Source: Planctomycetota bacterium (lineage in GTDB: Bacteria; Planctomycetota; Phycisphaerae; UBA1845). From it: a DNA stretch of 56,610 bases. The stretch covers positions 1-56,610 of the forward strand of contig JAUWWQ010000026.1 of assembly GCA_030616775.1 (NCBI GenBank), read 5' to 3'. Shown here piece by piece: positions 499 through 30,182 of the stretch. Position numbers and translations under genes: made by a program. The notes beneath the pieces were generated by a model. That model had not been told where the DNA came from. It did no database searches and saw only the letters and a program-made list of their open reading frames with translations. The first letter of the stretch is position 1. Each line of letters begins with the position of its first letter.

Positions 499-2307
499 AT
501 GAAGGGGTCAAAGGCATTGGCTTTTTGTTGTTGCCTGGGAGGGCTGTTCAACTCGGCTGCAAGTGGTGCAGGAGTTGACTTGGTCCCGATCAGTGCGGAC
601 GGTGCCCACACGATCACCGGTAACGAGATCGTCCTGGAGGGCGGAGGGCAGAAGGTTTTCCTGGAGATATACGTCGGCGGCTGGGACCCGGACCAGATCA
701 AATCGTGGCAGGCGGTGATCGATTCGACAGGCTATTCCAGTGCATTGCGCGGCACGCTGACCCCGTGGAATCCCGCGTGTACGACTGATGGGGACTGCGA
801 GGCCCTGATGGGCTCGCTGGGTCACCCCTGGGGTACTGCTAAGGGTGGTTGTGGGGCCACTGGATGGCCGGACGGGGAATGCATCCCCGCGTGGATCGAT
901 AACAGCCGGACCGACTACGTGTTTGCCGCGCAGGGCGAGATGGCCGCGGTGGACGTGAGCACCCTCGACTACCGCTACGGCAGCACCTTAACGAACTCTC
1001 TTGCAGCCGACCCGGGCACGTGGTGCTACGCCGGGACCCTGGCCCTGGACGTACCGCTCGGCGCTATGGGCACCTTTACCGTGGGGTTCCAAAGCGAGGG
1101 CACCCACATGCAGGATGAGAACGGCGTCTATATCACACCGTTGACGCTAACACCCGCCCTGATCACTGTGCACTGCCTGATAAACTCGGATTGCGTTGAT
1201 GATAACGCCTGTACGGACGACACTTGCGAACAGAACGGGTCGTGCTCGCACGAAAACAACTACGATGATGAGGTTGACTGCTGTAACCCCGTCGACGGTA
1301 CCCTGACACAGATCAACGACGGCAACAGTTGCACCAGCGATACTTGTGACCCCAGCACCGGTGAAGTGAGCCATGTCCTGCTGGACGACGGAACTCCCTG
1401 CGACGACGGGTTGTTCTGCAACCTGGGCGAAACCTGCATGGACGGCATATGCGGCGGCGGAACGCCTCGTGACTGCGACGACCAGATCGAATGCACGGAG
1501 GATTCGTGCGACGAGGACGGCGACGCGTGCGTCAACGCACCGGATGACAGCTTCTGTCCCGACGACGGGCTGTGGTGCAACGGAGAGGAGTTCTGCAATC
1601 CTGGCGTGGGTTGCGACCGCACAGATCCCCCATGTGGCGGCCCGTGCGACGAAGAGCTTGACATTTGTCTGTGTGATGCACCCAGCTCGCTGGTGTCCGG
1701 CGGGCGGTTCTTGGCGATTGCGGCCGAGCCGGCAGATTCGGACATCCCCCAGGCAATTCTGATCACGCCGGATTGTCCAGGCGGCATATCCAGGTATGTC
1801 GGTCCGCCAAGCCCGATCACCATCGATGCGTACCCTGATTCCGCATGGAATATTGCAACGCTGGTCGATGACCCGAGCGAGGCGGTCTACCTCACGCCGC
1901 CAGAATGGGGCAACTTGCTGGTCTACCACCAAGATATTGTGCCGGCCGCTCTCTATCAGGTGCAGGCAGATTGCGGCTCGCCTGGAAATCCCGGTCTGTC
2001 AGACCCGACTACGATAACCACGCCGAAGTTGGGCGATACCGTCGGCCGCCAGTATGGGTGGTGGTGGTGGGACCCACCGGACGGGACGGTCAACATCATG
2101 GACATCATAGCCGTCTTGGACAAGTTCAGGGGCCTTCCCGGGACTGTACCTATCTGGTGGGTGGACCTGGTCGGCACCGGCGGAGGCGGAATCAGGTGGT
2201 GTACACCGAATCTCCGCATAGACATTATCGATGTTGCCGTTGCCCTGGACGGGTTTAGGGGATTCCCATACACGCAGTCTACGGGGTGCCCGGAACCCTG
2301 TCTCTAA
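499..2307 (+). CDS. Secreted cysteine-rich protein with cohesin-like N-terminus and split dockerin-like C-terminus
   Basis: This 602-residue exported protein has unknown function. A signal peptide occupies about residues 1-24. Residues ~25-225 form a cohesin-like beta domain of the type shared with the genes at 2496 and 19679; it has a WDPDQIKSWQA segment, an SRTDYVFA motif and a CYAGTL motif. Residues ~225-390 hold C-x-D-x-x-x-C-T-x-D-x-C repeats resembling Dicty_CTDC repeats. From ~395 to the end is the module shared with the genes ending at 3728, 5135 and 22987: a beta region, then two dockerin-like halves ending LDKFRG and LDGFRG, and a terminal FPY...C-x-x-PC cap. The ATG has a GGAGGAA site 6 bases upstream. 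Calcium binding and a structural or adhesive role are inferred. The upstream neighbour is an antisense group II intron, so expression may be disturbed. Confidence 0.85.
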   Translation: MKGSKALAFCCCLGGLFNSAASGAGVDLVPISADGAHTITGNEIVLEGGGQKVFLEIYVGGWDPDQIKSWQAVIDSTGYSSALRGTLTPWNPACTTDGDCEALMGSLGHPWGTAKGGCGATGWPDGECIPAWIDNSRTDYVFAAQGEMAAVDVSTLDYRYGSTLTNSLAADPGTWCYAGTLALDVPLGAMGTFTVGFQSEGTHMQDENGVYITPLTLTPALITVHCLINSDCVDDNACTDDTCEQNGSCSHENNYDDEVDCCNPVDGTLTQINDGNSCTSDTCDPSTGEVSHVLLDDGTPCDDGLFCNLGETCMDGICGGGTPRDCDDQIECTEDSCDEDGDACVNAPDDSFCPDDGLWCNGEEFCNPGVGCDRTDPPCGGPCDEELDICLCDAPSSLVSGGRFLAIAAEPADSDIPQAILITPDCPGGISRYVGPPSPITIDAYPDSAWNIATLVDDPSEAVYLTPPEWGNLLVYHQDIVPAALYQVQADCGSPGNPGLSDPTTITTPKLGDTVGRQYGWWWWDPPDGTVNIMDIIAVLDKFRGLPGTVPIWWVDLVGTGGGGIRWCTPNLRIDIIDVAVALDGFRGFPYTQSTGCPEPCL

Positions 2308-2495
2308 TCATCCGCGGTACGGGTGACAGCCAGGCTCTGTCCGATGAATCGGGTCCGACGCGTGATGGGGTCGTGACTGGTGGCGTATCCGATCCTGCGA
2401 TTGCCATGTCGGGCGCTATGGGGTATAAGCTTCGAGTTGATTGCGGATGCCGGGAGCACCCGAACTGGCAACTATGATTTGGCGAAGGATGATTG

Positions 2496-3671
2496 ATGGT
2501 GAACGCTATAGGGCAGTTTATAAGACTGTTGTGTGTGTCGGGCCTGGTGACGTCGGTAGGATTGGCTCAAAACCCTACATTCTCTCTCGAGGTCATCGAG
2601 CTCAATTCAACCCCGCTGGAGCGCCCGGTGAGCCATATCCAGGTCTCGCCGGGAGATGTAATGACGGTCAAGATCTTTGTCAGGGACTGGTCACCGAACG
2701 GCGAGCGCATGCGGGCCTATCAAGCCCAGCTCGACTATGAGAGCTATACCAGCGGTTCGCAAGGCAGCGTCATGCCGATGGACTACGATATCACTTCGGC
2801 TGTGAGCACAGAGAACCTGGAAAACGCGTTCATTGACACCACCGATCCCATGTATGCTCACTCCGGTAAGGCAACGGTGGCAATCGTCGACAGCGTGACT
2901 TGGGGATACCGTTGGCTTAGCGTGGTGATCGATCGGGAACAGACCGCTAGTTGCCCGAAACCGGGCACCAAGTATTACTGCGGCACGCTCAACCTGCAGG
3001 CCTCGGAAGACGCACAGGGTTCGTTTACGCTGAGACTCGACGAGGAGCCAGGCATGAGCGTCCTGCACGACATAGACAGCATCATGATCGCCCCGCTCGA
3101 CTTCGAGCCGTTGACCATCGACGCCGTCGGGGATATAGTGACGCTTCGGGTCATCTCGAGCGATCCACCAAGCAGGGCCATCGACGCCCGACAGCCCATC
3201 TATCGCGGTGAACCCGCTGCTGGGTTCAGCGCCGTGGACCTGACATTCAATACGGACAGCGCGCGATTGACCGCTGCGGACTTTGCGATCGATGACGGTA
3301 GCACAAGCCCTCCCAATATCAAACGGGTGGAGTCTAAAGGGGCTGTGCTGACTATGGCACTGGACCGTGGAATCAGTGCCGGGAGGTGGACCACGATCAC
3401 GTACAAGGCCAGCGGGACCGGCACGCGCATCGGCTATCTCCCCGGTGACGTGAACAATGATGGGATCGTCAGCGTGGATGACATGCTGGCTCTGGTTGGC
3501 GGGCTGGAGGATGCTGCGGCGCGACAGCTCTATCGGTTGGACATCGACCGCAACGGTGTATCCGGCGTGGCCGACGTTCTAAGGCTCATCGACTTGTTCG
3601 CCGCACCGGACGTCTACCGCGCCGTCTTGCCCAGCCGTGCAACGCCAGAGGCAAGATCGAGCCCGTCTTGA
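2496..3671 (+). CDS. Secreted cohesin-like/dockerin-like protein
   Basis: About 391 residues. ATG 2496 is preferred over the in-frame TTG three bases earlier because AAGGA (2485-2489) is then 6 bases away. The signal peptide is about residues 1-24, ending near SVGLAQ. Residues ~30-210 match the cohesin-like N-terminal domain of the 499 and 19679 genes: a SPNGERMRAYQAQLDY segment, FIDTTDPMYA, and KYYCGTLNL, followed by IAPLDFEPLTIDAV. A second beta domain spans ~220-320. The C-terminus holds two dockerin-like calcium loops, GDVNNDGIVSVDDM and DIDRNGVSGVADVL, ~40 residues apart. It has no cysteine-rich repeats, which makes it the simplest member of the cluster. It lies 188 bases after the previous gene on the same strand and is convergent with the next. 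Surface or matrix role inferred; no enzyme motif seen. Confidence 0.82.
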   Translation: MVNAIGQFIRLLCVSGLVTSVGLAQNPTFSLEVIELNSTPLERPVSHIQVSPGDVMTVKIFVRDWSPNGERMRAYQAQLDYESYTSGSQGSVMPMDYDITSAVSTENLENAFIDTTDPMYAHSGKATVAIVDSVTWGYRWLSVVIDREQTASCPKPGTKYYCGTLNLQASEDAQGSFTLRLDEEPGMSVLHDIDSIMIAPLDFEPLTIDAVGDIVTLRVISSDPPSRAIDARQPIYRGEPAAGFSAVDLTFNTDSARLTAADFAIDDGSTSPPNIKRVESKGAVLTMALDRGISAGRWTTITYKASGTGTRIGYLPGDVNNDGIVSVDDMLALVGGLEDAAARQLYRLDIDRNGVSGVADVLRLIDLFAAPDVYRAVLPSRATPEARSSPS

Positions 3672-3727
3672 CGTGCTTGGCGCCTGGGCGGTTAAGCTCC
3701 GGGTTCCGGGTGGGTAGCGGCACCCGA

Positions 3728-5005
3728 TTACTGAGGGAGAGAGCTGCCGAAGACCCTCGCAAATGCGGCAAAGTCAAGAAGGTCCACGTCGTCGTCCCCA
3801 TCGGCGTCAAAAAGGCCGCAGCCCGGGCCGGTCTGTTCTGCGGGGCCGGCCAGGCACGGGACGAAGTCCGCGAAATCGTCAAGTCCCGGACCGGCTGAAC
3901 AGGGCTCCACACACGGATAGCTCGCCCCGCCGCAAGCGTCCCGAGCACTCTCCACATCATGAGCATCGATCTGGCGATCGGGCAGGCAGGGAGCCAGGTC
4001 GAGATTCTCCAAAATGGTGTCGCCGCTGAAGATGCCCTGCGAACCGTCAAGCACCAATGTGAAATCGTTGATAAAAACGACGCCATTGTTATCGACGTCG
4101 CCCCATATCCACGTCGTAGCACTTGCCGGACTCGACATAGACTGCACCTGCTGGTCCTGCCCGCAGGCCGCTTGTACATGGTACCTGGCGCTGGGAACGA
4201 TCTGGAGGTCGGTCACGTGAATCGTCCCCCATTCGTCCGGCGCCTGGAAGACCGGAGAGGCGCCGAGCGCGCCGTTCGTCTGGACAAACAGCGACATGCA
4301 GGCAACGGCTGGATCATCGGCTTCACCAGTGACCAGCAGCGCAACTTGGTCCGCACCCGGCGCCGACGTGACCGCCAGGTACCGAGAGCCGATGGCGACA
4401 ACCGTCGGCCGCGAACACCCCGTAAGCGTCACCTCTGCGGGTGGGCCCAGCGTGCCGATGATATCCTCCCCCGGGGCATCGCCGGAGGCCACAAGCGTTC
4501 GCGTGCTCTCCCCGAATGCCATCTCCAAACGTAACTCGCTGACTCCGGTATCAAGCGCCTGAAACATGAACGTGGTGACCCAAAGGCCTTCCGGGGTCGC
4601 GACAGCCGGGTCCCCCGAAGCTAACTGCCCTAAGGCATTGTACAGGGCGTTGCCGTCGGTGAAGGTGTCGTTCAAGCCGTCTGCTTGTGAGTCATCGAGA
4701 AAACCTGAGCTAAGCCAGTCGTAAGCGTTTTCCGGGCATGTACCCTGATCACAGGGATCCACAATGGCCCATAATCCCAGATACGTCGGATCCCAGACCA
4801 GGATCGCAGTTATGGCTGCCACGGATTCGTCGAGGCCGCTGTCGGCAACGGCGTACAGGGCGATTTCGACCATTTCGCCGACTTCAACCGTCTGTCGGAC
4901 GGGCCGCCACTCCAAGTTGACCGCCGCCTCCGATCGTGACGCGCCTGGCAGGGGAAGCACCGTCATCACCAGCGCGAAGGCAAAAGAGTTGAAGCGGCGC
5001 CCCAC
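3728..5005 (-). CDS. Secreted cohesin-like protein with split dockerin-like C-terminus
   Basis: 425 residues. It starts at GTG 5005 with GGAG eight bases upstream; there is no better in-frame ATG. The signal peptide is about residues 1-28. Residues ~29-195 form a cohesin-like domain with the shared segments VNLEWRPVRQTVEVGE, VWDPTYLGL and DGNALYNALGQL, also found in the 5135, 13060 and 22987 genes. Residues ~200-370 are the shared C-terminal module: GSRYLAVT, VALLVTG, WGTIHV, then GDVDNNGVVFINDFTLVLDG and a YPCVEPC cap. Unlike its relatives, this protein continues past the cap with a further ordinary dockerin loop, DADGDDDVDLLDFAAF, at the end, so it has three calcium-loop-like segments. It lies 129 bases downstream of the giant gene on the same strand and could be co-transcribed with it. 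Confidence 0.83.
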   Translation of the reverse strand: MGRRFNSFAFALVMTVLPLPGASRSEAAVNLEWRPVRQTVEVGEMVEIALYAVADSGLDESVAAITAILVWDPTYLGLWAIVDPCDQGTCPENAYDWLSSGFLDDSQADGLNDTFTDGNALYNALGQLASGDPAVATPEGLWVTTFMFQALDTGVSELRLEMAFGESTRTLVASGDAPGEDIIGTLGPPAEVTLTGCSRPTVVAIGSRYLAVTSAPGADQVALLVTGEADDPAVACMSLFVQTNGALGASPVFQAPDEWGTIHVTDLQIVPSARYHVQAACGQDQQVQSMSSPASATTWIWGDVDNNGVVFINDFTLVLDGSQGIFSGDTILENLDLAPCLPDRQIDAHDVESARDACGGASYPCVEPCSAGPGLDDFADFVPCLAGPAEQTGPGCGLFDADGDDDVDLLDFAAFARVFGSSLPQ

Positions 5006-5134
5006 GACTTCTACTCCGGCAACCTCGGTGAACTCCGTGCGCCCAAGGTCACGATGCTGTCAGCACGAGCACGCATGACGACGCACCATGGCATCTTAGC
5101 CCTGCGTCCATCACTTCACCCACGCCATGATAGT

Positions 5135-8100
5135 TCACGGGCAAGGATCGCTACACGGGTATGGGAACTGCCTGAAGGCATCCAAGGCGACGGTCGCGTC
5201 CGACATGTCAATCACCAGTTGCGGGAGGCAGTCGATTCCCGTTCTTCCGCAGAGGTCCACCGCATACAGAGTAGCCATGTCGAAGATGCCCCGGAACCCG
5301 TCAAGGACTAGGGTAATGTCCAGGATGGTGACGAGCCCGCCGGAGTTGTCGGTGTCAGCCCAAATCCACGTTGTGCCGGCGGCCGGTGTGGACAGGCCTA
5401 TGCCCTGGCCCGTATCGCATTCGGCTTGGACAATATAGCTCGTGTCTGGTACAATCTCCAGGCCGCGGACATGTGCAGTACCCCATCCCGTCGTCCCCGT
5501 CGGCGGTTTATAAACCGGACTTGTCCCGAGCCTGCCGTCCGACCGAACGTAAAGCGATATGCACGACACCTCTTGATCCACCCCGGTCACAAGCAGAGCC
5601 ACGGGCGTGGCCCCGGGGCGGGGGGTCACCGCCAGGTACTTGGACCCCTCCCCGACGACCATCGGCTCTTGGCAGCCACACGACTGGTTGGCCTCATTGC
5701 ACAGGTTCGGGTCGTCACAGGGACTGTCACCCGGCTGGCAATCGACCATGGTATGACAGAACTCAGGGCCGTTACAAAACAGACCGTCATCACATAGAGC
5801 GTCGTTGGGCGGATAGACGCAGACTCCGTCGACACACGCATCCTCCGTGCAGTTCACCCCGTCATCGGGGCAATCCGCAACCGTGAAGCAGTCAACACAC
5901 TGGTCATTATCCTCGTCACACAGTTGACCCGGACAGGCATCCCCGCTGCCCACACAAACGCCAATGCTGCACACGTCGGTCGCCGTGCAGAACAACCCGT
6001 CGTCACAGGGAATCGTGTTGACGTAGTTGGTGCAGGTGTTAAGCCGACAAAGGTCAGTGGTGCAGATGTTCCCATCGTCGCAGTGCTCGTCAATCTCGCA
6101 CTCCACACAGGCGTCGAGCGTCTCGCTACAGAGCAAAGGAGGCGTACAGGGGTCACCGCTGCCCACACAGACGCCGTCCACACAGGTATCGATTGTCGTG
6201 CAGAACAGCCCGTCGTCGCACGAGAGGGCGTTGATGAAGTATTCGCAGAGGTTGGCGTTGCAGAAGTCGTCCGTGCAGACGTTGGCGTCATCGCAGTCTG
6301 GATCCGTCAGGCAGTCGACGCAGCGGTCGTTCGCCTCGTCGCAGACCTCACCCGGACAGGCATCCCCGCTGCCTACGCACACACCCGCACTGCACATGTC
6401 GGTGGCCGTACAGAACAGGTCGTCGTCACACGGAATCGTGTTGTCCGGGTTCTCGCACGTCCCGAAGGCATCGCAGATATCATCCGTGCAGAGATTCCCG
6501 TCGTCGCAGTCGGCAGCCGTGAGGCACTCTACGCAGGCGTCGAGGTCTTCACTGCACAGCAGCGGAGCCGGACATGGATCAAAACTACCCACGCACGCCC
6601 CGCCACTGCATGTATCCGTCGCCGTACAGAACAACCCGTCGTCGCACGGCAGCGCGTTGTTCGTAAACTCGCAGACGCCGGTGTTGCAAGCATCATCGGT
6701 GCAGAGGTTCCCGTCGTCGCAATCGGCGTCGCCCTGACACTCGGTGATGCGCACCGTAGCCGACCCGAGGCTGCCGGTAAGATCCTCGCCGAGCATCTCC
6801 CCAGCGCCTATAACCCGCGTCTCGGTGAACGAGCCCACCCAAGGTGGGATGACGATTTGCGAACCCGTTGTGCCGTCCAGGGCAAGGAACTCAAAGGTCG
6901 TCACCACCAGCCCACCCGGTGGTATCTGGACGCCTGACTGCAAGGCGGTCAGGGCTTGATACAGGGCATCGCCGTCATTGGCAGGCGTACCCGCAAACGG
7001 TTCGTTCAACCCGTCCAGACCGGAGTCGTCCGGGAAACTGGAGAACAGCCAACTGGTGCCGCCAGCGTCCGTATTGCCCGCCAGCTCCAACGTAAACGGA
7101 TCCCAATCCAGGATTACCTCGATCGCCCCGGCAGGGTGATCCATACAGGTCGCCGACACGGCTATAAGATCAATCTGGGCCGTCTGACCTACGTTGACCG
7201 TCTGGGTCGCCGGCGACCACACCAGGTTCACGGAAGGGGTATCTACCAGCGTTCCGGCGCACGTTCCGTTAGAGCAGACGTCGTTGATCGTGCACGAGAA
7301 CCCGTCGTCGCAGGCACCCCCCTCGTTAGCTGGCTGGGCATAACAGATACCCCTTGCCGGGTCGCACGTACCTATATTGCAACTGTCATCGAAACTCGAG
7401 CAGTCAATCGGGGTACCTGCGCAAACACCGGCTGAGCAAACATCGTTGAGCGTGCACAGATCGCCGTCATCGCAGGGGTCGGCCAGGTCGGTATATTCAC
7501 ACACTCCTGCGTTGCAGACCTCTGCCGTGCAGACGTTAGCGTCGTCGCAATCGTTGTCCACGTCGCAGTTCCAGCAGTCCGGAATCCGGGTTCCCGTGCA
7601 GACGCCGGATGTACAAGTGTCATTGTCCGTGCACGGGTCGCCGTCGTCACAGCCACCGCCTTCGTTAATGGGGACCGGTTCACAAGCCCCACTTGCCGGA
7701 TTGCAGGTCCCCACATTGCAGGCATCGTCCAGACCGGAACAATTGACCGCGACCCCGGTACAGACACCAGCGGAACACTTATCCAGTCGCGTGCATAGAT
7801 CACCGTCGTCGCACGGACTATTCTCACTGGCGGGCATCGCCTGGCAAGTGCCCGTCTGCCAGTCGCAAACGCCAAGGTTACAGGTATCGGTAAGATGCGT
7901 ACAATCGATCGATGTTCCGGAACACACACCGCTGGCGCAAACATCGTTCTCCATGCACAGATAACCGTCGTCGCAGGGAACCCCGTCGTTTGCAGGTGTC
8001 AAGTCGCAGGCTCCCGTCTCCGGATTGCAGGTTCCGATGTTGCATTGGTCACCGATCCCGGAACAATCGACCGCAGTACCGGCACACACACCGGCCGCAC

Positions 8101-10888: not shown

Positions 10889-11010
10889 TGCCAATCCTCA
10901 CAGCACCGCCGCGATGAGCTCCACCCACCCAATGCTAGCCGGCGCTGACAACCTCAAACACCTCCTCGTAATCCGATACCCTCGATGCCGACTCCATGTT
11001 CCTTCCCCAT

Positions 11011-12990: not shown

Positions 12991-13059
12991 CCACAATGCC
13001 TCTTTTCCCTGCGCTACTGGGAGCTCGAACATCGAGCCTACCCACACTATTACGTTGCC

Positions 13060-14304: not shown

Positions 14305-14460
14305 CGCTTACGCCTCTCCTCGTTCACCAACGGTCACTCACCGCGGCTGGCGGATGATTCCGCCAGCAGCCGGTCCCCCACCCAGTCGGCGACTCAATCG
14401 GTACCCATCGCTCAAGTCCGCTATCGAACCTTGATGGCACCGGGGAAGAGAACACCCCAT

Positions 14461-17400
14461 TTACTTATCCAGACCTCGTCCCGATCGACGAAGGCTGGAA
14501 CGGACTTTGCGTCCCTCGAGTTTGTCCAGCGTGGCCGTGAACTCCGGCGTCAATTCCAGACCGTTCCGCCGCGCGAAAGCACGAATGTCTCTCGCGTCGA
14601 CAACGCCGTCACCGGTCAGGTCGGCCTTGGACGCACTGGGAAACGCCAGACTTTCAACGGAAACGCTGGCCAACGGTAGTCTTCTTATCTCGCCCACCGG
14701 AATAGGCTCTGCGTCGACAGGCTGCAGACCGCCATCCGTGATTCCGGCTGCTGCCGTGCAGTTGTCGACAGGTTCGCCGACCTTAAAGAAGTTCGCCTGG
14801 ATCGCGGCAAAGTCGAGCATGTCCTGCAAACCATCGCCTGTCGCATCGCCACCGGTCGTAAGGTTCGGGTCGATACCCTCGTTCCACAGCGTCGCCAGGA
14901 TCGAGAAGTCGGTAATGTCGCACAGGTTGTCCTGAGCCACGGCACCCAGGTGGAAGTCTCCGGTCAGCAGACTGCCGGAACCGGTCCGGGTAACCTGCGC
15001 CACCATGCAAGTACCATAGTTCACTTGCCTGCTGCGCCTGAGCGTGTGCCCCTCCTGCATACTGATCCAGTTAGCGGCCGCACTTGTATCGGTTATAATC
15101 ACCGACCCGAGTCCGGTGTCGTTCACGGTAACGGGTATGACACGGTTGTCTATCGACCCGCCGCATTCGGTGATCACGAAGGTCACGTCTCGCGTGATCG
15201 TATCGGTGGGCAGCGGAAGGAGGACGCCCCCAAGCTCGAGCGTCACGTCGATGCTCGGTTGGATGATGTTGACGATCTTCTGGCACGTGTTCACGCAGCC
15301 GTTTGCATTGGTAACGTTGATTACAAGGGTAACGGTCGTGCCCGTGCCGGCGTCGTAGTTGATGGACTTGGTCCCCTGACCGCTCGTGATCTCTCCGCCG
15401 GTTATAACCCAACCGTACATCTCACCCCCGACCCCACTTGGAACCGAGGCGAAGTTGTTGATCGATTGATAGCAGACGTCATCAGCCGCGAGAATCGTGC
15501 AGTCCGGGGCATTAACAATGATTTCCTTCTGGCACATACTCACACAGCCGTTGGGATCGGTGACCGTGATGGTAAGCGTAAGCGATGTTCCCGCCTCCGC
15601 CGTGTAGGTGATCGACGGGGTGCTCTGCCCCGTGTCGATGATTCCGCCGGTTATGCCCCAGACGTAGGTCCCGCCCGTGGGGGGCACTTCGGCGGCGTGC
15701 CCGCCTGTCCCCGCACAGACCAAGTTCTCAGCCGAAATGGTGCAGTCCGACAGGGGGTTAACCGTGACCGTGGCACAGTCGATTGCACTGAAGCAGTTGT
15801 TCACGTCGGTGACGGTTACGCACACCTGGTGCTCGGCGACACCCGCGCTGGCCACGTCGAACGTCGGATTCGCAGCCGTGGTGTCGTTCAGGTACGCCGC
15901 CCCGGCACCCGTCCAATCGTACGTGTAGGGTGCGGTGCCGCCCAACCCTGTGGGCGACCCGCCGACTACCTGCCCGCCGGCGTCCTCACAGACCGCGAAG
16001 TCGGCCCCGGCGTCGGCTGTCGGTGGAGCGCTGGCCACCGTAACAATATACTGACATGTATTGGTGCAGGCGCTGATATCGGTCACGATGACGTCGATGG
16101 TCACCGTCGGGCCGGCGCCCGCCGTGTAGGTCATCGTGAATAAGTCGTCCGGTGTGTCCTGGTTACCGTCGGTCACCTCCCAGTCATACGTCGCTCCGAG
16201 ACCGGCGTCGCCGACCTGCGCGTCATGCGTAGTGCCCGAGCAGACCGGATCAGTCGTCGTGATCGAGCAGTCCAGGACTATACTGACGCTAACGATCGCG
16301 CAGTCGGTCGCGGAAACGCACGAGTTGGCGTCGGTCACGGTGACACAAATGTCGTGCGAGCCGACCCCGGCCACCGACACGTCGAACGTCGGATTTGCGA
16401 CGATCAAGCTGCTAAGGTAGGCGGCACCCGTTCCTGTCCACGCATAGGTGTACGGGGAGGTCCCGCCCAAAGCGGTCGGCGAACCGCCGACGACTGGATC
16501 CGACGCGTTGGCACACAGGGCGAAATCGGACCCTGCATCCGCGATCGGAAGGGCGCGGACGGTAACCGTGGCGCAGCTCACAGCGCTGTCACATCCGTTA
16601 GCATCGGTCACCGTCACGCATACCTGATGCGAACCTCCACCCGCGGTTGCTACGTCCAACGTCGGATTGGCCGCGGTCGTGTCGCTCAGGTATGCGGCAC
16701 CGCCTCCCGTCCATAAATAGGTGTACGGACCGAGTCCACCTGACCCCGTGGGCGCTTCGCCGACCATCGGATCGGCCCCATCCGCACAAAGCGCAACGTC
16801 GCTGCCCGCATTCGCCGTCGGGAACGCGTATACCGTCACCGTAGTGCAGTCGGTCACGCTGACACAGGTGTTGGCATCGGTAACCGTCACACAGACCTGG
16901 GTGGTACTGGGGCCCGCCGTGGCCACATCGAATGTCGGATTCGCTGCGGTCGTGTCGCTCAGGTAGTTCGAGCCGGTTCCCGTCCACGCGTACGTGTACG
17001 GACCGGTTCCGCCCCAAGCAGTGGGTGCGCCACCCACCGTGGGACTGGTGTCGTTGGCGCAGGCCGTGATATCGGCACCTGCATTCGCCGCCGGAACCGC
17101 GTCGATCGTAACCGTGGCGCAGTCGATAGCGCTGACACAGGTGCTGGCATCGGTCACCGTCACGCACACCTGATATGAAGCGGGCGTGGGAGTGGACACG
17201 TCGAACGTCGGGTTCGCAACCGTTGTACTGCTCAGGTATGTGGCTCCGCTTCCCGTCCATGAATAGGTGTACGGACTAGTCCCGCCCAATGCGGTCGGTG
17301 CTCCACCCACCGTTGGATCGAGCTCGTTGGCGCAGGCCGTGATATCGCCACCTGCATCGGCCACCGGAAGGGCGTTGACCGTCACCGTCGCGCAGTCGGT

Positions 17401-18972
17401 CGTGCTGACACATGCGTTGGAATCGGTAACCGTTATACACGCCTGATACGAACCAGGACCGGCGGTTGTCACGGCGGTTGTCACATCGAACGTCGGGTTG
17501 GGCACTGTCGTACCGCTGAGATATATGGCCCCATCACCCGTCCATGAGTACGAGTAGAGGCCGGTTCCGCCTGAAGCGGTCGGTGCTCCGCCGACACTCG
17601 GATCGGGTACTACGTCTTCGCAAACCGCAACGTCGGCACCCGCATTCGCCGCCGGAACATCGTATATCGTCACCGTTGCGCAATCCGTCGTACTCACGCA
17701 TGTGTTGGAGTCGGTCACCGTCACACACACCTGATACGAGCCGGGTTCGGCGGTTGTGACACCGAACGTCGGGTTGGCCACGATCGTGCTGCTGAGGTAG
17801 CTCGCGCCGGTGCCGCTCCACACATACGTGTATGGGCCGAGTCCGCCGGAGCCGGTCAGGGAGCCGCCGACCGCCGGATCGGCCGCATCCTCGCAAAGCG
17901 TTATATCACTTCCGGCGTCGGCGGCCGGAAGCGCATTGACCGTAATCGTGGCGCAGTCTTCGACGCTGTCGCAGGAGTTGACGTCGGTAACGGTCACGCA
18001 CGCCTGATAGGAGCCCACCGCCGCCAGCGACACACCAAATGACGGATTCGAGGAAAACGTGCTGCTCAGATAAGTGACGGCCGTTCCGGTCCACAAATAC
18101 GTGTATGGCGCGGTACCGCCTGTGGCCGTCGGGGCCCCACCGATCGTAGGATCAGAGGCGTCGGCGCAGACCGCGATGTCGCTGCCGGCGCTGCCCGTCG
18201 GCCTGGGGTCTACAGAGATAATCTCCTGGCACGTGCTAACACAGCCGTTAGGGTCGGTAACCGTAACGTCGATGGTGATGCTGAGCGGAACCGTTGCGGT
18301 ATAGGTAATATCGTTCGTACCATCCCCTCCGGTTATGTCGCCACCTAAAATCGTCCACTCATAGGTCGAGCCGACACCCTCATCCGGCACCGAGGCCCCG
18401 TTGCCCGTCGACCCTTCGCACACCGGGTCATCGGCTGTCATCACGCAGATCGCAGGTCCGATAAAGATGCCACCGGAATCGATCATGTTCGGCCAGATCG
18501 TAGTTGCGTCGCTGGCTCTGGTGAGCTTTGTAACGAATGGCGGTTCGTCATCCCGGAACGTCACTACGGCCGTGCCGTTGGCAATCGCCGTGAACGTCAG
18601 CTTGGCGATCCTGTGCGGCACCCCTTGCGAGTTCCCGTTGATCACCGCAGCCCAGTCAATGTCGCCGTCGGTGTCCGTCTGGCTGATCTCGACATACCCT
18701 TCGTCGGGCGGAGGGAACTGCAGGTCATTCGGCTCGACGTCCACCAGGGTCATCAACGTGTTGTCGTAGTGCAGGCGCACCTGGACACCGTTGATGGCCG
18801 CCGACAAGTTGGCGATATCCAGCGTCACCTCCACCGTGTCGGTTACCTCGACACACTCTGTCAGGGGATCGACGTTGAGGCTCAGATCATCCTGGGCAAA
18901 CGATGGCCTCACACCCATCATCGCTGCCGACGCCGCCATCAGTACAATGGCAAAAACTTCTTTCCGTTTCAT
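14461..18972 (-). CDS. Giant secreted repeat protein with cohesin-like head and PKD/SprB-like repeats (1503 residues)
   Basis: ATG 18972 has GAGGAG about eight bases upstream. The signal peptide ends near SFAQ (~27). Residues ~28-170 are a cohesin-like domain paralogous to that of the 12990 gene (DDLSLNV, ANLSAAINGVQVRLHYDN). Two interleaved repeat families follow. Type A, ~88 residues and eight copies, has DAGSD-x-x-x-C, VGG-x-PTA-x-GG, PYTY-x-W-x-G, YLS, NPTFDV and CVTVTDAN-x-C. Type B, four copies, has C-x-I...VC...Y-x-W-x-I-x-GG and VTDPNGCV-x-x-CQ. These resemble PKD/SprB-type surface repeats known from gliding bacteroidetes; that resemblance is by eye. The C-terminal ~270 residues form a second type of dockerin-bearing end shared with the gene at 19679, with GDATGDGLQDMLDF and ADLTGDGVVDARDI loops and a basic tail. 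Adhesin or surface filament is the likely role. Confidence 0.87.
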   Translation of the reverse strand: MKRKEVFAIVLMAASAAMMGVRPSFAQDDLSLNVDPLTECVEVTDTVEVTLDIANLSAAINGVQVRLHYDNTLMTLVDVEPNDLQFPPPDEGYVEISQTDTDGDIDWAAVINGNSQGVPHRIAKLTFTAIANGTAVVTFRDDEPPFVTKLTRASDATTIWPNMIDSGGIFIGPAICVMTADDPVCEGSTGNGASVPDEGVGSTYEWTILGGDITGGDGTNDITYTATVPLSITIDVTVTDPNGCVSTCQEIISVDPRPTGSAGSDIAVCADASDPTIGGAPTATGGTAPYTYLWTGTAVTYLSSTFSSNPSFGVSLAAVGSYQACVTVTDVNSCDSVEDCATITVNALPAADAGSDITLCEDAADPAVGGSLTGSGGLGPYTYVWSGTGASYLSSTIVANPTFGVTTAEPGSYQVCVTVTDSNTCVSTTDCATVTIYDVPAANAGADVAVCEDVVPDPSVGGAPTASGGTGLYSYSWTGDGAIYLSGTTVPNPTFDVTTAVTTAGPGSYQACITVTDSNACVSTTDCATVTVNALPVADAGGDITACANELDPTVGGAPTALGGTSPYTYSWTGSGATYLSSTTVANPTFDVSTPTPASYQVCVTVTDASTCVSAIDCATVTIDAVPAANAGADITACANDTSPTVGGAPTAWGGTGPYTYAWTGTGSNYLSDTTAANPTFDVATAGPSTTQVCVTVTDANTCVSVTDCTTVTVYAFPTANAGSDVALCADGADPMVGEAPTGSGGLGPYTYLWTGGGAAYLSDTTAANPTLDVATAGGGSHQVCVTVTDANGCDSAVSCATVTVRALPIADAGSDFALCANASDPVVGGSPTALGGTSPYTYAWTGTGAAYLSSLIVANPTFDVSVAGVGSHDICVTVTDANSCVSATDCAIVSVSIVLDCSITTTDPVCSGTTHDAQVGDAGLGATYDWEVTDGNQDTPDDLFTMTYTAGAGPTVTIDVIVTDISACTNTCQYIVTVASAPPTADAGADFAVCEDAGGQVVGGSPTGLGGTAPYTYDWTGAGAAYLNDTTAANPTFDVASAGVAEHQVCVTVTDVNNCFSAIDCATVTVNPLSDCTISAENLVCAGTGGHAAEVPPTGGTYVWGITGGIIDTGQSTPSITYTAEAGTSLTLTITVTDPNGCVSMCQKEIIVNAPDCTILAADDVCYQSINNFASVPSGVGGEMYGWVITGGEITSGQGTKSINYDAGTGTTVTLVINVTNANGCVNTCQKIVNIIQPSIDVTLELGGVLLPLPTDTITRDVTFVITECGGSIDNRVIPVTVNDTGLGSVIITDTSAAANWISMQEGHTLRRSRQVNYGTCMVAQVTRTGSGSLLTGDFHLGAVAQDNLCDITDFSILATLWNEGIDPNLTTGGDATGDGLQDMLDFAAIQANFFKVGEPVDNCTAAAGITDGGLQPVDAEPIPVGEIRRLPLASVSVESLAFPSASKADLTGDGVVDARDIRAFARRNGLELTPEFTATLDKLEGRKVRSSLRRSGRGLDK
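15290..18210 (-). repeat. Interleaved ~88-residue coding repeats in the 1503-residue protein
   Basis: Eight type A units and three of the four type B units lie in this stretch; the first type B unit lies just upstream of it. The units are clearly homologous but diverged at the DNA level, so this is an old amplification rather than a recent tandem duplication. Each type A unit carries two conserved cysteine pairs, one near its start and one flanking the VTD-x-N-x-C turn. Confidence 0.8.
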
Positions 18973-19678: not shown

Positions 19679-22600
19679 TTACCGCCTGGGCGGGCGCTGC
19701 CGCGTGGACTTACCCCGCTTTCCGCCTCCATCATCACCTATCGACCTACGGTCGTATTCGGACGGGAGGTCTCCATTCATCAGCGTGATCACGTCGTCCA
19801 TGTCCAGTACACCGTCCTGGTTAAGGTCGGCCGCGATCAAATGCTCGAGCCCCATCTGCCGCAGCTCCCGTACCGATATCGCGCTAATGGGCCCGGAAGC
19901 TGCTGAGGCACCGCCCCCACCACAGCAACTAGGCTCGCTCGCCTGCAGGCAGCTGCCAACGAATATCACCAGGTCAAGAAGGTTGACCTGATTGTCTCCG
20001 TTGATGTTTCCGTCAGGCCCGCCGGTTCCGCAAGGTGTATTTTGATTCGCCTGTGACATGTGCAGCGAGAACAACACACCGAAATCCAGAATGTCGATGA
20101 AGTTGTCGTCGTTGAGGTTGCCGCCGAGCAAGTGGTGTCCGCCTGACCCGCGATCGCCGACGAAGGTCGCCGTGTAACTCCGGCCGTCGCTTGTCGAGAA
20201 GTCGGCGGCCGTGCTACGCAGAGTGTGAAGCTCGTCCCGAGCAGTTATACATTCCCATGCACCACCGGGAATCACCATGTTCGCACCGGAGCCCAGACCA
20301 TTCGTAAACGTCATTGTATGCTCAATCGTGGCGTGGCGCGCCTCGGGGGGACCATCACAGTCCCACAGATCGAAGGTGATGCATCGGTCGAACGGACCGG
20401 CAACGACCGACGAAAGCTCGACATTCACGGTCAAGACCGCCGGCTCCACGGTGACAGCAAAGGTGCACCAGTCCTCGATCCCACACGAATTCACTGCGGT
20501 ACAACTGACCATCGTGGTCCCGGGGGTGAATACCGATCCGCTGGGCGGATCACAGGTCACCGGAACAGAGCCGACATCGCAACTGTCGGTCGCCTGCGGC
20601 GTGATCCACGTAACCACTGCGGTCAAAAGGCCGGGGTCCGGCAACACCGTCATATCACCCGGACACGACGTCAGAATCGGCGGGCTCCCGTTGATCTTTG
20701 CCGGCGTCATGTCGACGAGATTGACCCTGACCTCCTCACCGCCCTGAGCGGTCAGCCGGTTAGGTTCGCCATTCGGCCCGGACGGACGGTATCGTACGTA
20801 CCCTTCGCACTCGGCAATCGCCTGAAACGTAATAACCGCAACGGTGGCCGGCCCCCGAGTCGTGGTGCCGAAGCTGGTGCCTACAACGTAGTCGATGGTT
20901 CCATATACCGGGTCGACGGTCTCGTTGAATTCCAGCGCAAACGCGGAAGAGGGGTCCACCGAGTTGCCAGGGTCGATGCTCACAAACTGGAGCGTTGTAC
21001 TGTCGTATTCCAGGAAGAATTGCGCACCGACAATGGGTACGTCCGAGGCGCCCATCTCGACCCGGACGTCGAACGTCTCGAGGGAAGCGTAACAACCCGG
21101 AACGGGCAGCGACCCGGGCTGGGCGACAAGTTCCAGCAGCGGTCCGGCCTCACAGAAGCAAAAACCGGGTACCAGGTCGCCGCACGTATTGTTTCCGAAA
21201 CAGTCCGCGTCGGTTGTGCACCGGATGGTGTTGATGTCTGTGTTGACACAGACTCCGTCGATACATTCATCAAGTGTGCAGACTAGGGTATCGTCACAAC
21301 CAGCATTGAGCCCGTTAGTTACGGGCTCGTGGTCTACCGAGCCATCGGGGTTGCAGATATCGTCCGTACAGGGATTGCCGTCATCTATAAGGGTCAGGTC
21401 GCCGGTCGACGGGGAACAGCAATAGAGGGTATCGTTATAGTTCGGCGCATAGACACAGGCACCGTCTATGCAAAAGTCATTGGTGCAGACGTTGAAGTCC
21501 TCGCAGGTCGTGTCCGTCACGCTCAACGTAAACGTACCGGTCGCACCGCCCCTCCCATGAACGAGAATCAGATAAGGCACACCCAGCGTCGAACACCAGC
21601 TCACGGACTCCCGGCTGCTGCCTATGTTGTCAGCGTCTCCCACACATGACAAAGCGGCGCAGCTTCCCTGGTAGACGGTCAAGCGCGTGTCATACGAAGC
21701 ACTGGACAACGAGGCCGTCATGAGGTTGTCCGTGCCCACAACGGAATACCAAACGCCGGGCGAATCAACGAAGCCTTCGCCGCAGTCAAGCCCGGTGTCG
21801 TCGTTGATCGCCGTGTTCTCGGTGGACCCCCGGGTACTCGACGGAGCGCTGACCTGCCTGGCGTTTACGCACTCATCCGGGGCACAGGTGATCTCGATGC
21901 TCCCTGATCCTGTCAGGTCACCGGTCGCACCCACGCGGACCTTGTAACAGAGCCCCTGGACGACTCCCGTCGCCACTGCCTTTGAGGTAAGGCCGCAACC
22001 AGGGCCGTTATCGTTGCACACCAGCAGATCGCCATCAGCGACCGGACATGTGCAGGTGTCATAGACAGCCACTCTCGTGTCGAAGTCGGCGTTGCCGCAC
22101 GTGCTGACCGTAAGGACACCGGTGCAGGTGGCTATGTGGTCGTACCAGATATCATTGCTGACCGTGTTCGAGCCGGCTTGGTCGCAACCGCTGCCCGGGT
22201 GTGAGGGACCGTCTGTCGTGGCATCGTAGGTACTGAACGATGTGGCCCCCTCGGCAATCGCCAGGGCTGCGGCGCATTCATCATTAATCACGAAATCAAG
22301 AACGGTTACCGTAACTCCGTTGGAAGGAACTACGGAAATCGGCGTGATAAGGGCGCCGTATTGGCTGAGGAGCATCGTGGGCTGGATTTCATCGCCCGGA
22401 TCTGCCACCACTAATCTGACCTGGAAGTCGCCGGAGGCGTTAGACGAGGCCTTGAAGATGTACGTGCCACAGTACTTCGCTTGCGTGACTGTAAGGGCGC
22501 CCCCTGCATTCATCAGCGTGGCCGCAATCTCGAGCTCAGCCGTGTCGACAATGTCGAAGGCGGCCAGGTTGCTGAAGACCCAGTCCGTCCTGCTTGTGTC

Positions 22601-22882
22601 AACAAATATGCTCTCATTATCCGGCCATGGGGTCACTGGGTCCACCAGCGTCAATGAGCCCGCCGACCCAGACCCCGGAACAATCTCGAGCGTGGTTTGG
22701 TAGCCGCGCAGGCGGTCGGGGTCGACGATGCCGTTGACGAACACTTCAACCGTGATCTCGCCGCCGGGACTGATCGTCGTGACCCCACCTGGGACGACCA
22801 GGCTCAACTCCGCTGCCTGCGCGGAAAGGGCGGCAGTCAAGGCGCCCAGTGTGCAAATACCCCTAATGATTAACAACCTCAT
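19679..22882 (-). CDS. Secreted cohesin-like/cysteine-rich/HYR-like protein with dockerin-like end
   Basis: About 1067 residues from ATG 22882, preceded by a strong GGAAGGGAG; the upstream TTG would overlap that site. The signal peptide ends near SAQA. Residues ~25-200 are the cohesin-like type shared with the 499 and 2496 genes (RLRGYQTTLEI, FVDTSRTDWVF, KYCGTYIF). Residues ~205-465 form two beta domains of the bacterial pre-peptidase C-terminal style: DECAAALAI...FSTYDATTDG...SNDIWYDH, then DECVNARQV...GVWYSV...YDTRLTVYQGSC. A short cysteine block and another cohesin-like domain (residues ~590-720) follow, then an HYR-like domain (SCPGDMTVLPDPG...VSCTAVNSCG). The end is the type shared with the 14461 gene: a beta domain with ARDELHTLRS, loops NLNDDNFIDILDF, NINGDNQVNLLDL and DLNQDGVLDMDDV, then a basic tail. 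Ligand unknown. Confidence 0.86.
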   Translation of the reverse strand: MRLLIIRGICTLGALTAALSAQAAELSLVVPGGVTTISPGGEITVEVFVNGIVDPDRLRGYQTTLEIVPGSGSAGSLTLVDPVTPWPDNESIFVDTSRTDWVFSNLAAFDIVDTAELEIAATLMNAGGALTVTQAKYCGTYIFKASSNASGDFQVRLVVADPGDEIQPTMLLSQYGALITPISVVPSNGVTVTVLDFVINDECAAALAIAEGATSFSTYDATTDGPSHPGSGCDQAGSNTVSNDIWYDHIATCTGVLTVSTCGNADFDTRVAVYDTCTCPVADGDLLVCNDNGPGCGLTSKAVATGVVQGLCYKVRVGATGDLTGSGSIEITCAPDECVNARQVSAPSSTRGSTENTAINDDTGLDCGEGFVDSPGVWYSVVGTDNLMTASLSSASYDTRLTVYQGSCAALSCVGDADNIGSSRESVSWCSTLGVPYLILVHGRGGATGTFTLSVTDTTCEDFNVCTNDFCIDGACVYAPNYNDTLYCCSPSTGDLTLIDDGNPCTDDICNPDGSVDHEPVTNGLNAGCDDTLVCTLDECIDGVCVNTDINTIRCTTDADCFGNNTCGDLVPGFCFCEAGPLLELVAQPGSLPVPGCYASLETFDVRVEMGASDVPIVGAQFFLEYDSTTLQFVSIDPGNSVDPSSAFALEFNETVDPVYGTIDYVVGTSFGTTTRGPATVAVITFQAIAECEGYVRYRPSGPNGEPNRLTAQGGEEVRVNLVDMTPAKINGSPPILTSCPGDMTVLPDPGLLTAVVTWITPQATDSCDVGSVPVTCDPPSGSVFTPGTTMVSCTAVNSCGIEDWCTFAVTVEPAVLTVNVELSSVVAGPFDRCITFDLWDCDGPPEARHATIEHTMTFTNGLGSGANMVIPGGAWECITARDELHTLRSTAADFSTSDGRSYTATFVGDRGSGGHHLLGGNLNDDNFIDILDFGVLFSLHMSQANQNTPCGTGGPDGNINGDNQVNLLDLVIFVGSCLQASEPSCCGGGGASAASGPISAISVRELRQMGLEHLIAADLNQDGVLDMDDVITLMNGDLPSEYDRRSIGDDGGGKRGKSTRQRPPRR

Positions 22883-22986
22883 GAGGCTCCCTTCCAAAAC
22901 GGATAGTCACGTTCAAGCCGCTAGGCTTTCCCCCCTCGACTATCCCCCGACCTCCAGTACCGCCGTCACCGGCAGCGGCCCGGTCG

Positions 22987-25269
22987 TTACGGTTGACACC
23001 GCGTGACGGCACAAGGGTCCGGGAACCCCCGAAACGCGTCCAAGTCGACCGTAACGTCAAGAATACTGATGACCCGCTCAGGCATGCACCCCGTAGCCCC
23101 ATAAACATCAACGTTTTCCAACGTAGCCGAAAGGCACTTATAAACCGTAGTGTCGCACGTGAAGTGCGGCGGCACTGGCGGGTTCATGCAGTCTTCATCG
23201 ATTTCGCAGTAAAACGTATGGAACATGCCACGGAACCCGTCCAGAATCCGAGTCACATCGCGGATGTCCACCCCGCCCCAATTGTCGGTATCCCCCCACT
23301 GCCACAGGGTAGCGCTTACCGGCTCGGAAAGACTGGTGCCGGGGTTTGCAGGATCGCAATCGGTCTGGATACTGTACGTTTTCCCGCCGATCAACTCGAA
23401 GCCCCGCACCTGGACCGTGTCCCAACCTTCCGGACCCGGTGGCAAGTAATCCGGCTCGCAAGGTGGGTTGTCGCATTGTTCTACTTTGCCTCTGTATGTC
23501 GCGCTTCGCACGTACCCGTAGACGCAGGACACATCCGGATCCTCGCCGGTTACCCATATTGCCTGCTCCGGCGGACCGGGTTGCGGTGTAACCCCGATAT
23601 ACCGCGACCCTTCCGTCACCGCCACCGGCGCCGGGCACGCCAGACATACGCCCTCTTGGCAGATACCGTACGGACAATCACTGCCATCGATGCATGCAAC
23701 TTGCACAAGAGCGGGCTCGCCCAACAATCCGGTAACATCCTCCCCGGGCACTGCTCCGCTGGCGACCTTCGTTCTAGTCTGCACGATGCAGTTCTCGACA
23801 GCGACCGGCGTGCCGTCGGAGATCCCCAGGGTGGCCGCGAGGGCTCTGAACTTGAAAGTGGTCACCCAGATACCCAAGTCCGCCACACACGCCGGATCGG
23901 CACGCTCTCCGTCGCATACCCATTGCTGGTTAGCGGTGTAAAAAGCGTCGCCATCGTTCCCCGCAGTCCCCACCAGTGTGATGCAGTAACCCACGTCCTC
24001 CGGAGGACAGTCATCGTGAATCAAACAAGGTAGGCCGTGGTTGACTCCGCCAGAGCAGAATCGGCGGCACGGGGCGTTGATGTCGTCGCCGAACGGGGGG
24101 CAATCGGACGGGAAGAACGATTCGCTCCAGTTGTATCTGATGGGCGAGCCGCAGTCGTATTCGCACGGATCAGGATCGTCGCAGGGGTCCTCGGGGTTCA
24201 CCCCGCATTCACCCACGCCTGCTGGAGGACATTCAGCGTCGGTCGAACAAGGCAGGCCGTCGTAGTCTCCACCGTAGCAAACACCCGTCGGAGCAAGCTC
24301 GAGAACAAGGGGGTCCCAACTGATGACAGCTTCAATGGCTGCCACGGGTTGGATAGTCCCTCCGCAGATGTCGTTCGAGGCGCATCCACTGGCCGTCATA
24401 TGGAACTCGATCTCCACGATATCCCCGACGCTGATCGTCTGAACACCAGGTGCTCGAAGCTCGAGGCTGACGCAACCGTCAGATGGTCCACCCACGCAGA
24501 CGCCGTCTTGGCATTCGTCAATCCAGGTGCACTGATCTCCGTCATCACATGGGACGCCGTCGCTCATCGGGGTGAAGCTGCAGTCGCCCGTTATCAGGCT
24601 ACACCACCCCGTGTGACACTCCGGTGCTTCGGCCATGCAGTCCTTTGGCAACCCGGCGCATACCGGCCCGACGCATGTTCCGGAGACAATGCCAACGCAG
24701 TCGCGATTATCAATGCAGATCTCGCCGTCGTGATCGCCACCCTCACAGACGTCTCGACACGCGTCGTCCACTGTGCAGTTGTTGCCGTCATCACACGGCC
24801 CGGTGCTGGGCGAGTACTGACACCCATTCACTACGTCGCAGGTATCGTCTGTGCAAGGATTCTGGTCGTCGCAATCGGCGTGAGTCTCACACCAAACGCA
24901 CTGGTCGAGAACCTCGCTGCAGAACTTGCCCGGCGGGCAACTGAGAGGCGTACCAGGAATGCATTGCCCGAACGGAACACCGCCGCAGTCCGGATAGGTT
25001 GTGCAACACAGCTCGGTCCCGTTGCAAAACAATCCGTCCTCGCAATCAGAGACATTCCAGCATACGCCGGGAGGGCCAGTAGGGCCGATCAGGCATTCAT
25101 CTTTCGTACACGGATTGCCGTCGTCGCAGTCAGCATCAACGGTACAGGCTTGCACCACCGGTGGGGCAGCCAAAAACAACCCCAGAATCACTGCGAGGCA
25201 TCCACGCCCACTGCAGAACCTCACCACCACCCCCGTGCCAGGCTTCCGTTCCAGCCAGTTCGATGACAT
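22987..25269 (-). CDS. Secreted cysteine-rich protein with cohesin-like and split dockerin-like modules
   Basis: 760 residues; ATG 25269 has AAGGGGG ~9 bases upstream. The signal peptide is about residues 15-41, after a basic leader. Residues ~41-275 are cysteine-rich, mixing CTDC-type repeats (CDDGNPCTKDEC, CDDQNPCTDDTC) with C-x-GG-x-x-DG-x-x-C units like those of the 12990 gene. Residues ~276-545 are a cohesin-like domain starting SLELRAPGVQTISVGD, interrupted by inserted C-x-GG units (CYGGDYDGLPC, CSGGVNHGLPC). Residues ~570-760 are the shared C-terminal module: GSRYIGVT, WDTVQV, GDTDNWGGVDIRDVTRILDGFRG, DVTVDLDAFRG and a short cysteine cap. The two halves are separated by an extra ~45-residue cysteine insertion. 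It is the first gene of the minus-strand series, 104 bases upstream of the 22882 start. Confidence 0.85.
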   Translation of the reverse strand: MSSNWLERKPGTGVVVRFCSGRGCLAVILGLFLAAPPVVQACTVDADCDDGNPCTKDECLIGPTGPPGVCWNVSDCEDGLFCNGTELCCTTYPDCGGVPFGQCIPGTPLSCPPGKFCSEVLDQCVWCETHADCDDQNPCTDDTCDVVNGCQYSPSTGPCDDGNNCTVDDACRDVCEGGDHDGEICIDNRDCVGIVSGTCVGPVCAGLPKDCMAEAPECHTGWCSLITGDCSFTPMSDGVPCDDGDQCTWIDECQDGVCVGGPSDGCVSLELRAPGVQTISVGDIVEIEFHMTASGCASNDICGGTIQPVAAIEAVISWDPLVLELAPTGVCYGGDYDGLPCSTDAECPPAGVGECGVNPEDPCDDPDPCEYDCGSPIRYNWSESFFPSDCPPFGDDINAPCRRFCSGGVNHGLPCLIHDDCPPEDVGYCITLVGTAGNDGDAFYTANQQWVCDGERADPACVADLGIWVTTFKFRALAATLGISDGTPVAVENCIVQTRTKVASGAVPGEDVTGLLGEPALVQVACIDGSDCPYGICQEGVCLACPAPVAVTEGSRYIGVTPQPGPPEQAIWVTGEDPDVSCVYGYVRSATYRGKVEQCDNPPCEPDYLPPGPEGWDTVQVRGFELIGGKTYSIQTDCDPANPGTSLSEPVSATLWQWGDTDNWGGVDIRDVTRILDGFRGMFHTFYCEIDEDCMNPPVPPHFTCDTTVYKCLSATLENVDVYGATGCMPERVISILDVTVDLDAFRGFPDPCAVTRCQP

Positions 25270-29974: not shown

Positions 29975-30182
29975 GCGACCCCGAGCTGGGCAGGCGGCCA
30001 AAAACGTACGGAGTTGTAGCCTCCGAGGTCCTCACCAGACCCAGTAGGAGCGGTCCAACTTACACTGCTACTTGCACCGTCATGCCCGACAGCGGACAAT
30101 CCGGCGGGCCGTTTCCAGGTACTTCATGTGCCTACAAGAGCACCGGCTCGGCATTGCCCGGGCCAGACTATGGGAAAATGCC

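Follow-up and report, generated by a model that had tools for sequence, protein, structure and literature searches.

Nine neighbouring genes of an uncultured Phycisphaerae bacterium probably supply the scaffold proteins on which an extracellular cohesin-dockerin complex displays proteases, an arrangement resembling the proposed 'planctosome'. Judging from sequence comparisons and predicted folds, we give this reading a probability of about 0.58. The genes occupy positions 499-25269 of the window, by which we mean the whole 56,610-nucleotide stretch analysed here (contig JAUWWQ010000026.1, assembly GCA_030616775.1, Planctomycetota bacterium). It corresponds to contig 30 in a genome of 4.45 Mb that is 97.8% complete. 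Its nearest named relative, with the same genus placement, is the metagenome-assembled genome CP070827.1, 'Phycisphaerales bacterium bin11'.

A sequence-only reading of the window had described nine secreted proteins built from reshuffled modules, and this description stands. All nine open frames were found where it had put them, and module sharing is far above chance, with all-against-all BLASTP within the cluster giving E-values down to 6e-70 and module orders that differ between proteins. We name the proteins p1 to p9 by frame start (Table 1). Rather than a single operon, the genes form two converging blocks, p1 and p2 on the plus strand and p3 to p9 on the minus strand, and by eye a Sec signal peptide is plausible at the start of all nine proteins; for p5 an inner ATG at ~12990 is the likely start. 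No NCBIfam model matched any of the nine. The claim that almost every module is shared holds for most of them but not for the PKD-like repeats, which occur only in p7, or the HYR domain, which occurs only in p8.

Module types A and C are cohesins

The proteins had been described as carrying cohesin-like heads of three types, which we call A, B and C. The type A modules of p5, p7 and p8 score 27.0, 29.4 and 37.7 bits against the Pfam cohesin family PF00963, above its gathering score of 24.1, and a profile of nine type A sequences matches the solved cohesins 1g1k and 2vn5 with an E-value of 7.6e-5 in a search of PDB profiles. Type A heads both p5 and p7, as claimed, and a third copy missing from the earlier list lies inside p8 (residues 588-735), where it outscores every other Pfam cohesin found in the genome. 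In total the genome yielded just four Pfam cohesins, three of them within the cluster.

Type C modules fall under Pfam detection in a PF00963 scan of the nine proteins. A profile-profile comparison nevertheless matches type C to type A (Prob 91, E 1.2e-6), and the AlphaFold model of p6 aligns with the cohesin-like module 2vo8 over 132 residues (VIA-align; Z 16.3, root-mean-square deviation (rmsd) 2.0). Nearly all of the 50 entries that VIA-align listed for this model are cohesins, and the Foldseek matches listed are likewise almost exclusively cohesins. The model has a mean predicted local distance difference test (pLDDT) score of 57, with values mostly of 65-86 over residues 21-80 and 121-160 and lower ones between. 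Seven type C copies are present in the genome. Type C had been listed as a head in four proteins. It is one in p3 and p6 but is internal in p4 and p9, and the head of p4 is instead a different 150-residue module ('DPWP'), which we call D. Types A and C, and hence at least two of the three head types, are therefore true cohesins, A by Pfam and PDB profile and C by its predicted fold; neither proved to be non-cohesin or to belong to an unrelated known family. The third type, B, showed a weak match only and is considered below.

The type C cohesin of p9 carries two long insertions of the GGxxxGxxCxxDxxC type, a motif nested within the cohesin, and p5 holds a motif resembling them. A second small cluster elsewhere in the genome (L089, G000:C107, 1052-4879) encodes a 1240-residue protein with module B, a type A cohesin and a Dockerin_1 domain, and its next gene a 286-residue protein with a type C cohesin and Dockerin_1.

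Calcium loops and a divergent dockerin tail

The C-termini carry the other half of the pair. The calcium-loop motif D.[DNST].[DN]......D plus a hydrophobic residue occurs exactly twice in each of p2, p3, p5, p6 and p7, always within the last 130 residues. It occurs once in p8, and allowing N at position 1 gives two in the last 130 residues and three in the C-terminal part. Shuffled sequences yield ~0.01-0.04 motifs per 130 residues. Dockerin-type loops are thus found at the C-terminus of six of the nine proteins, and p1, p4 and p9 have variant loops that mostly carry insertions. None of the nine reaches the gathering score of 22.9 bits for PF00404; p2 (17.5 bits) and p7 (20.1 bits) come below it and the rest give no match. 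Strongly basic ends follow the calcium loops in p7 (14461-14560, minus strand; SSLRRSGRGLDK, kept in CP070827.1) and p8 (19679-19760, minus strand; GKSTRQRPPRR).

Four proteins, p1, p3, p4 and p9, share one tail, in which a divergent two-repeat dockerin stands behind an FN3 domain. In the p1 model the FN3 part (residues 387-511) adopts an FN3 fold by VIA-align (Z 8.5, rmsd 2.6, 87 residues). The dockerin part aligns across both of its repeats with canonical dockerins of the same genome (Prob 94-95, E 2e-7 and 2.5e-8), and its two helices share one pattern, DVTAVLDKFRNL and DVTxVLDAFRGF. Internal symmetry of this kind is known in type I dockerins. Long insertions interrupt the first calcium loop. 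Two further claims hold up with these observations: the C-termini bear dockerins of at least two types, either with calcium loops in pairs or with the two halves of a divergent dockerin, and both partners, cohesin modules and dockerin loops or tails, occur within the same chains.

Tail-bearing proteins across the genome

A profile built from the four tails hits 51 places in the genome. Forty tail-bearing frames have a stop codon within reach, and in 35 of these the tail ends 20 residues or fewer from the stop; in p3 and a few more proteins residues continue past it. At least 36 tail proteins lie outside the cluster, and peptidase domains are found on 11 of the 36: M4 (L055, L057), C25 (L056, L062), S8 (L059, L064), C1 (L066, L068), M14 (L060), M12B (L073) and M28 (L078). 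If peptidases are assumed to make up 4-8% of the background, the probability of such a count is 1e-7 to 8e-5. Beta-helix and RCC1 types are among the further tail-bearing proteins. The 25 most frequent Pfam families of the 36 proteins include no glycoside hydrolase (11 further families fall outside this listing). It had been stated that no catalytic domain is attached. This is true among the nine, but the tail of p1, p3, p4 and p9 is the very one that these peptidases carry.

The tail DNA is 85-98% identical among otherwise different genes, frequently at contig ends, and such copies are found in L059, L061, L063, L064, L069, L076, L078, L080, L081, L084 and L086-L088. It has the look of a dispersed coding repeat that was copied recently and at which the assembly breaks. 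Similarly, the DNA of module B in p1 (604-1166, plus strand) is 91% identical to a stretch in gene L053 on contig 55, pointing to recent copying.

Together these features suggest the following model. The nine proteins would form the scaffold layer of a calcium-dependent extracellular complex, with cohesins A and C, and perhaps module B, as sockets. The canonical dockerins of p2, p5, p6, p7 and p8 could join scaffolds to one another in tiers, and the cargo, some 40 secreted proteins genome-wide with many proteases among them, would plug in by the uniform FN3-dockerin tail. The PKD, HYR and Cys-repeat segments may serve as spacers or as contacts to substrate or surface. We infer that the tails bind the cluster cohesins with calcium and that protein degradation is the job of the complex, which would be a machine for breaking down protein instead of cellulose.

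Conservation of the cluster

The sequence-only reading had proposed a search for the same cluster in other Planctomycetota, and the core gene order is indeed kept in three other Phycisphaerae genomes, CP070827.1, OFTM250 and OFTM174, at 41-89% identity. CP070827.1 retains p7-p6-p5-p4-p3 and the convergent p2-p1 in both order and architecture, with p2 to p6 75-89% identical, and an ortholog of the M4 protein L057 lies ~7.5 kb from its cluster. OFTM250 retains p7-p6-p5-p4-p3 and the convergent p2, and OFTM174 p7-p6-p5-p4 as far as the compared stretch runs, at 41-53% identity. Neither p8 nor p9 was seen at the cluster loci of these three genomes. The p7 ortholog of CP070827.1 (L049, 17542-19158) contains a masked N stretch, which leaves its PKD region out of the comparison.

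We also compared 51 genomes of the family, 25 with at least seven tails and 26 others, using the best ~29 candidates per genome. A Pfam cohesin is present in 24 of the 25 tail-rich genomes and 9 of the 26 others (p 4e-6), type C in 24/25 against 12/26 (p 1e-4), and seven or more copies of module B in 25/25 against 5/26 (p 7e-10).

Points against a protease-displaying scaffold, and the place of module B

Several observations weigh against the scaffold reading. The co-occurrence counts ignore shared ancestry, and in them module B follows the tails more closely than do A and C. Modules B and D are assigned to no fold, and the mean confidence of the structure models is low (51 and 57). The peptidase background of 4-8% is an assumption for secreted proteins rather than a genome count. 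The lamin-tail anchor of the planctosome, PF00932, was not found in this 97.8% complete genome.

Since module B co-occurs best with the tail, it might be the socket for the tail in place of A or C; alternatively, B and the tail might merely travel together. There are 18 to 21 copies of B in the genome. As a cohesin candidate B shows a suggestive pattern, yet hhalign matches it to type A with an E-value of just 2e-3 to 8e-3 and to type C with a Prob of 0.6, and a PDB profile search gave no match. For the p1 model, which is too poor to place B, Foldseek returned only weak FN3 matches, and the VIA-align match is confined to the FN3 residues, leaving B and the Cys repeats outside. Module D, with three copies in p4 (one being its head) and one in p6, was rejected as a cohesin, having an hhalign Prob of at most 1 against both A and C and no match in the PDB search. 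A wider version of the scaffold reading is possible though unlikely in our estimate: a conserved adaptor-cohesin cluster would organise a tail-tagged proteolytic machine of ~40 proteins within one Phycisphaerae family, the tail spreading by recent copying and B being a new cohesin class and the tail's main socket.

Alternative explanations

The position of the tail at the extreme C-terminus of 35 of the 40 frames, behind diverse heads, would also suit a C-terminal sorting or anchoring signal, like the C-terminal domains of the type IX secretion system (T9SS), PEP-CTERM or the 'GC-type dockerin', read by a secretion or surface-attachment machine rather than by the cohesins; the cluster would then encode modular adhesins bearing this signal. 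C25 proteases elsewhere often bear T9SS sorting domains. The GC-type dockerin anchor (NCBIfam NF041540, dockerin_GC) is likewise a C-terminal dockerin-like tail on many secreted proteins, and our tail resembles it faintly, at 16-23 bits. However, the best match in the genome (23.5 bits) stays below the cut-off of 29, which led us to reject NF041540 as the family of the tail, and the tail differs from it in its FN3 partner and the long insertions in its first calcium loop. Both repeats of the tail themselves resemble dockerins, extra residues follow the tail in p3 and a few others, and the same genome holds true cohesins that are often missing from tail-poor relatives. We regard a sorting signal as unlikely.

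The sequence-only reading had suggested self-assembly of the nine proteins into a surface lattice or matrix, held together mainly by cohesin-dockerin contacts among themselves and with no enzymatic role. Cohesin modules and dockerin loops do occur in the same chains, Cys and PKD repeats are characteristic of structural proteins at the cell surface, and the gene order is conserved as a set. In cellulosomes, though, adaptor scaffoldins normally carry both partners in one chain, and this feature alone therefore does not indicate a lattice. A lattice also leaves aside the identical type of tail on at least 36 proteins elsewhere, 11 with peptidase domains, and the ratio of few cohesins to many tails resembles scaffold and cargo. 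A scaffold with its cargo elsewhere in the genome fits better, and we consider the lattice quite improbable. Duplication and domain shuffling could instead have enlarged a family of modular secreted proteins that share no complex. This would account for the recently copied tail and B DNA (85-98% identical between otherwise different genes), but gene order and whole-protein architecture are kept in other genera at 41-53% protein identity, which requires selection on the set and makes this explanation very improbable.

Comparison with known systems

The planctosome was proposed in 2019 for lake Phycisphaerae (Nemodlikiaceae) as a cohesin-dockerin complex degrading polypeptides, with an adaptor carrying a signal peptide, dockerin, HYR and cohesin, an M12B reprolysin and an M14 carboxypeptidase as cargo, and a lamin-tail anchor (PMC6461901). 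In both cases cohesin-dockerin proteins of Phycisphaerae occur without cellulases, here as far as the tail-bearing families listed show. Like the adaptor, p8 unites a PF00963 cohesin, a PF02494 HYR domain and dockerin-type loops, the last without a Pfam dockerin match, and like the cargo, L073 (M12B) and L060 (M14) end in the divergent-dockerin tail. Unlike the planctosome, the present system has a conserved cluster of several genes, with head modules of three types, as well as ~40 tail proteins, seven peptidase families, the FN3-dockerin tail and Cys and PKD repeats. It fits a much larger variant of the hypothetical planctosome, without every feature of the latter. A survey from 2024 reported that in a further planctomycete, one that is not cellulolytic, dockerins are joined to peptidase-like and redox domains (PMC11557425).

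The system shares with cellulosomes the cohesin fold, the paired dockerin calcium loops, adaptors with both partners, and few scaffoldins against many dockerin-tagged cargo proteins. The X-dockerin pairs of cellulosomes are comparable to the Ig/FN3-like domain beside the dockerin here. It differs in having one cohesin per chain (at most two if B is counted) instead of arrays, and a cargo of peptidases, beta-helix or RCC1 proteins. A cellulosome proper seems unlikely, as the 25 tail-bearing families listed include no glycoside hydrolase. The nearest solved folds to type C are the cohesin-like modules 2vo8 and 2jh2 of Clostridium perfringens glycosidases (Z 16.3 and 15.1), at 12-14% identity; those are joined to secreted glycosidases, in contrast to the non-catalytic scaffolds here.

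Experimental knowledge of cohesin-dockerin assembly comes mostly from cellulose breakdown. If our scaffold reading is correct, the same plug-and-socket logic would be at work where uncultured bacteria of the environment degrade proteins. The 2019 planctosome idea would also become directly testable, with sockets and plugs named, and new orthogonal cohesin-dockerin pairs might be obtained.

Features of the cluster and neighbouring genes

Table 1. Proteins and modules of the cluster, in window positions; architectures were drawn from the all-against-all comparison and module profiles.
Feature	Position	Strand	Description
p1	499..2307	+	Signal peptide, module B, Cys repeats, FN3-dockerin tail; ortholog in CP070827.1
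p1 module B	574..1188	+	Module profile; fold unassigned
p1 Cys repeats	1168..1668	+	Pfam Dicty_CTDC, 28 vs cut-off 27 bits
p1 FN3 and divergent dockerin tail	1669..2304	+	Tail profile; predicted FN3 fold
p2	2493..3671	+	Module B, middle region, canonical dockerin; orthologs 43-76% identical
p2 module B	2571..3146	+	Module profile
p2 dockerin	3441..3590	+	Two canonical calcium loops; Dockerin_1 under cut-off
p3	3728..5005	-	Cohesin C, FN3-dockerin tail, further calcium loop at end; orthologs 45-80%
p3 cohesin type C	4418..4930	-	Module profile; profile-profile match to A
p3 FN3-dockerin tail	3896..4420	-	Tail profile, calcium-loop motif
p4 (1919 aa)	5135..10894	-	D, Cys, D, D, Cys, cohesin C, Cys, FN3-dockerin tail; orthologs 50-85% identical, module order same in CP070827.1 and OFTM250
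p4 module D copy 1	10379..10825	-	Module profile
p4 module D copy 2	8855..9277	-	Module profile
p4 module D copy 3	8399..8863	-	Module profile
p4 cohesin type C, internal	6743..7240	-	Module profile
p4 FN3-dockerin tail	5138..5671	-	Tail profile
p5	11011..13047	-	Cohesin A head, Cys repeats, C-terminal calcium-loop pair; orthologs 52-85% over aligned parts
p5 cohesin type A	12478..12906	-	PF00963 above cut-off; PDB cohesins
p6	13060..14304	-	Cohesin C, module D, canonical dockerin loops; orthologs 41-89%
p6 cohesin type C	13732..14235	-	Modelled fold aligns with 2vo8
p6 module D	13270..13728	-	Module profile; fold unassigned
p6 C-terminal calcium-loop pair	13075..13272	-	Motif; model helices 356-367 and 399-410
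p7	14461..18972	-	Cohesin A head, PKD/SprB repeats, dockerin; orthologs 43% over 1330 aa
p7 cohesin type A	18433..18891	-	PF00963 above cut-off
p7 dockerin region	14563..14940	-	Dockerin_1 E 0.0007, under cut-off; two loops
p8	19679..22897	-	Module B, Cys repeats, cohesin A, HYR, calcium loops; planctosome-adaptor-like
p8 module B	22274..22816	-	Module profile
p8 cohesin type A	20693..21136	-	PF00963 above cut-off
p8 HYR domain	20447..20683	-	PF02494 33.9 bits vs 21.7
p9	22987..25269	-	Cys repeats, cohesin C with two long Cys-rich insertions, FN3-dockerin tail
p9 cohesin type C	23695..24480	-	Module profile
p9 FN3-dockerin tail	22990..23637	-	Tail profile

Beyond the cluster the same contig encodes a beta-propeller protein of PF09826 (27647-29875, minus strand), a TPR Ser/Thr kinase (30072-33485, plus strand) and a rhomboid-domain protein (35360-36574, minus strand). 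A DsbD-like thiol-disulfide interchange protein (49398-51716, plus strand) shares the window with the nine secreted proteins, several of which are very Cys-rich.

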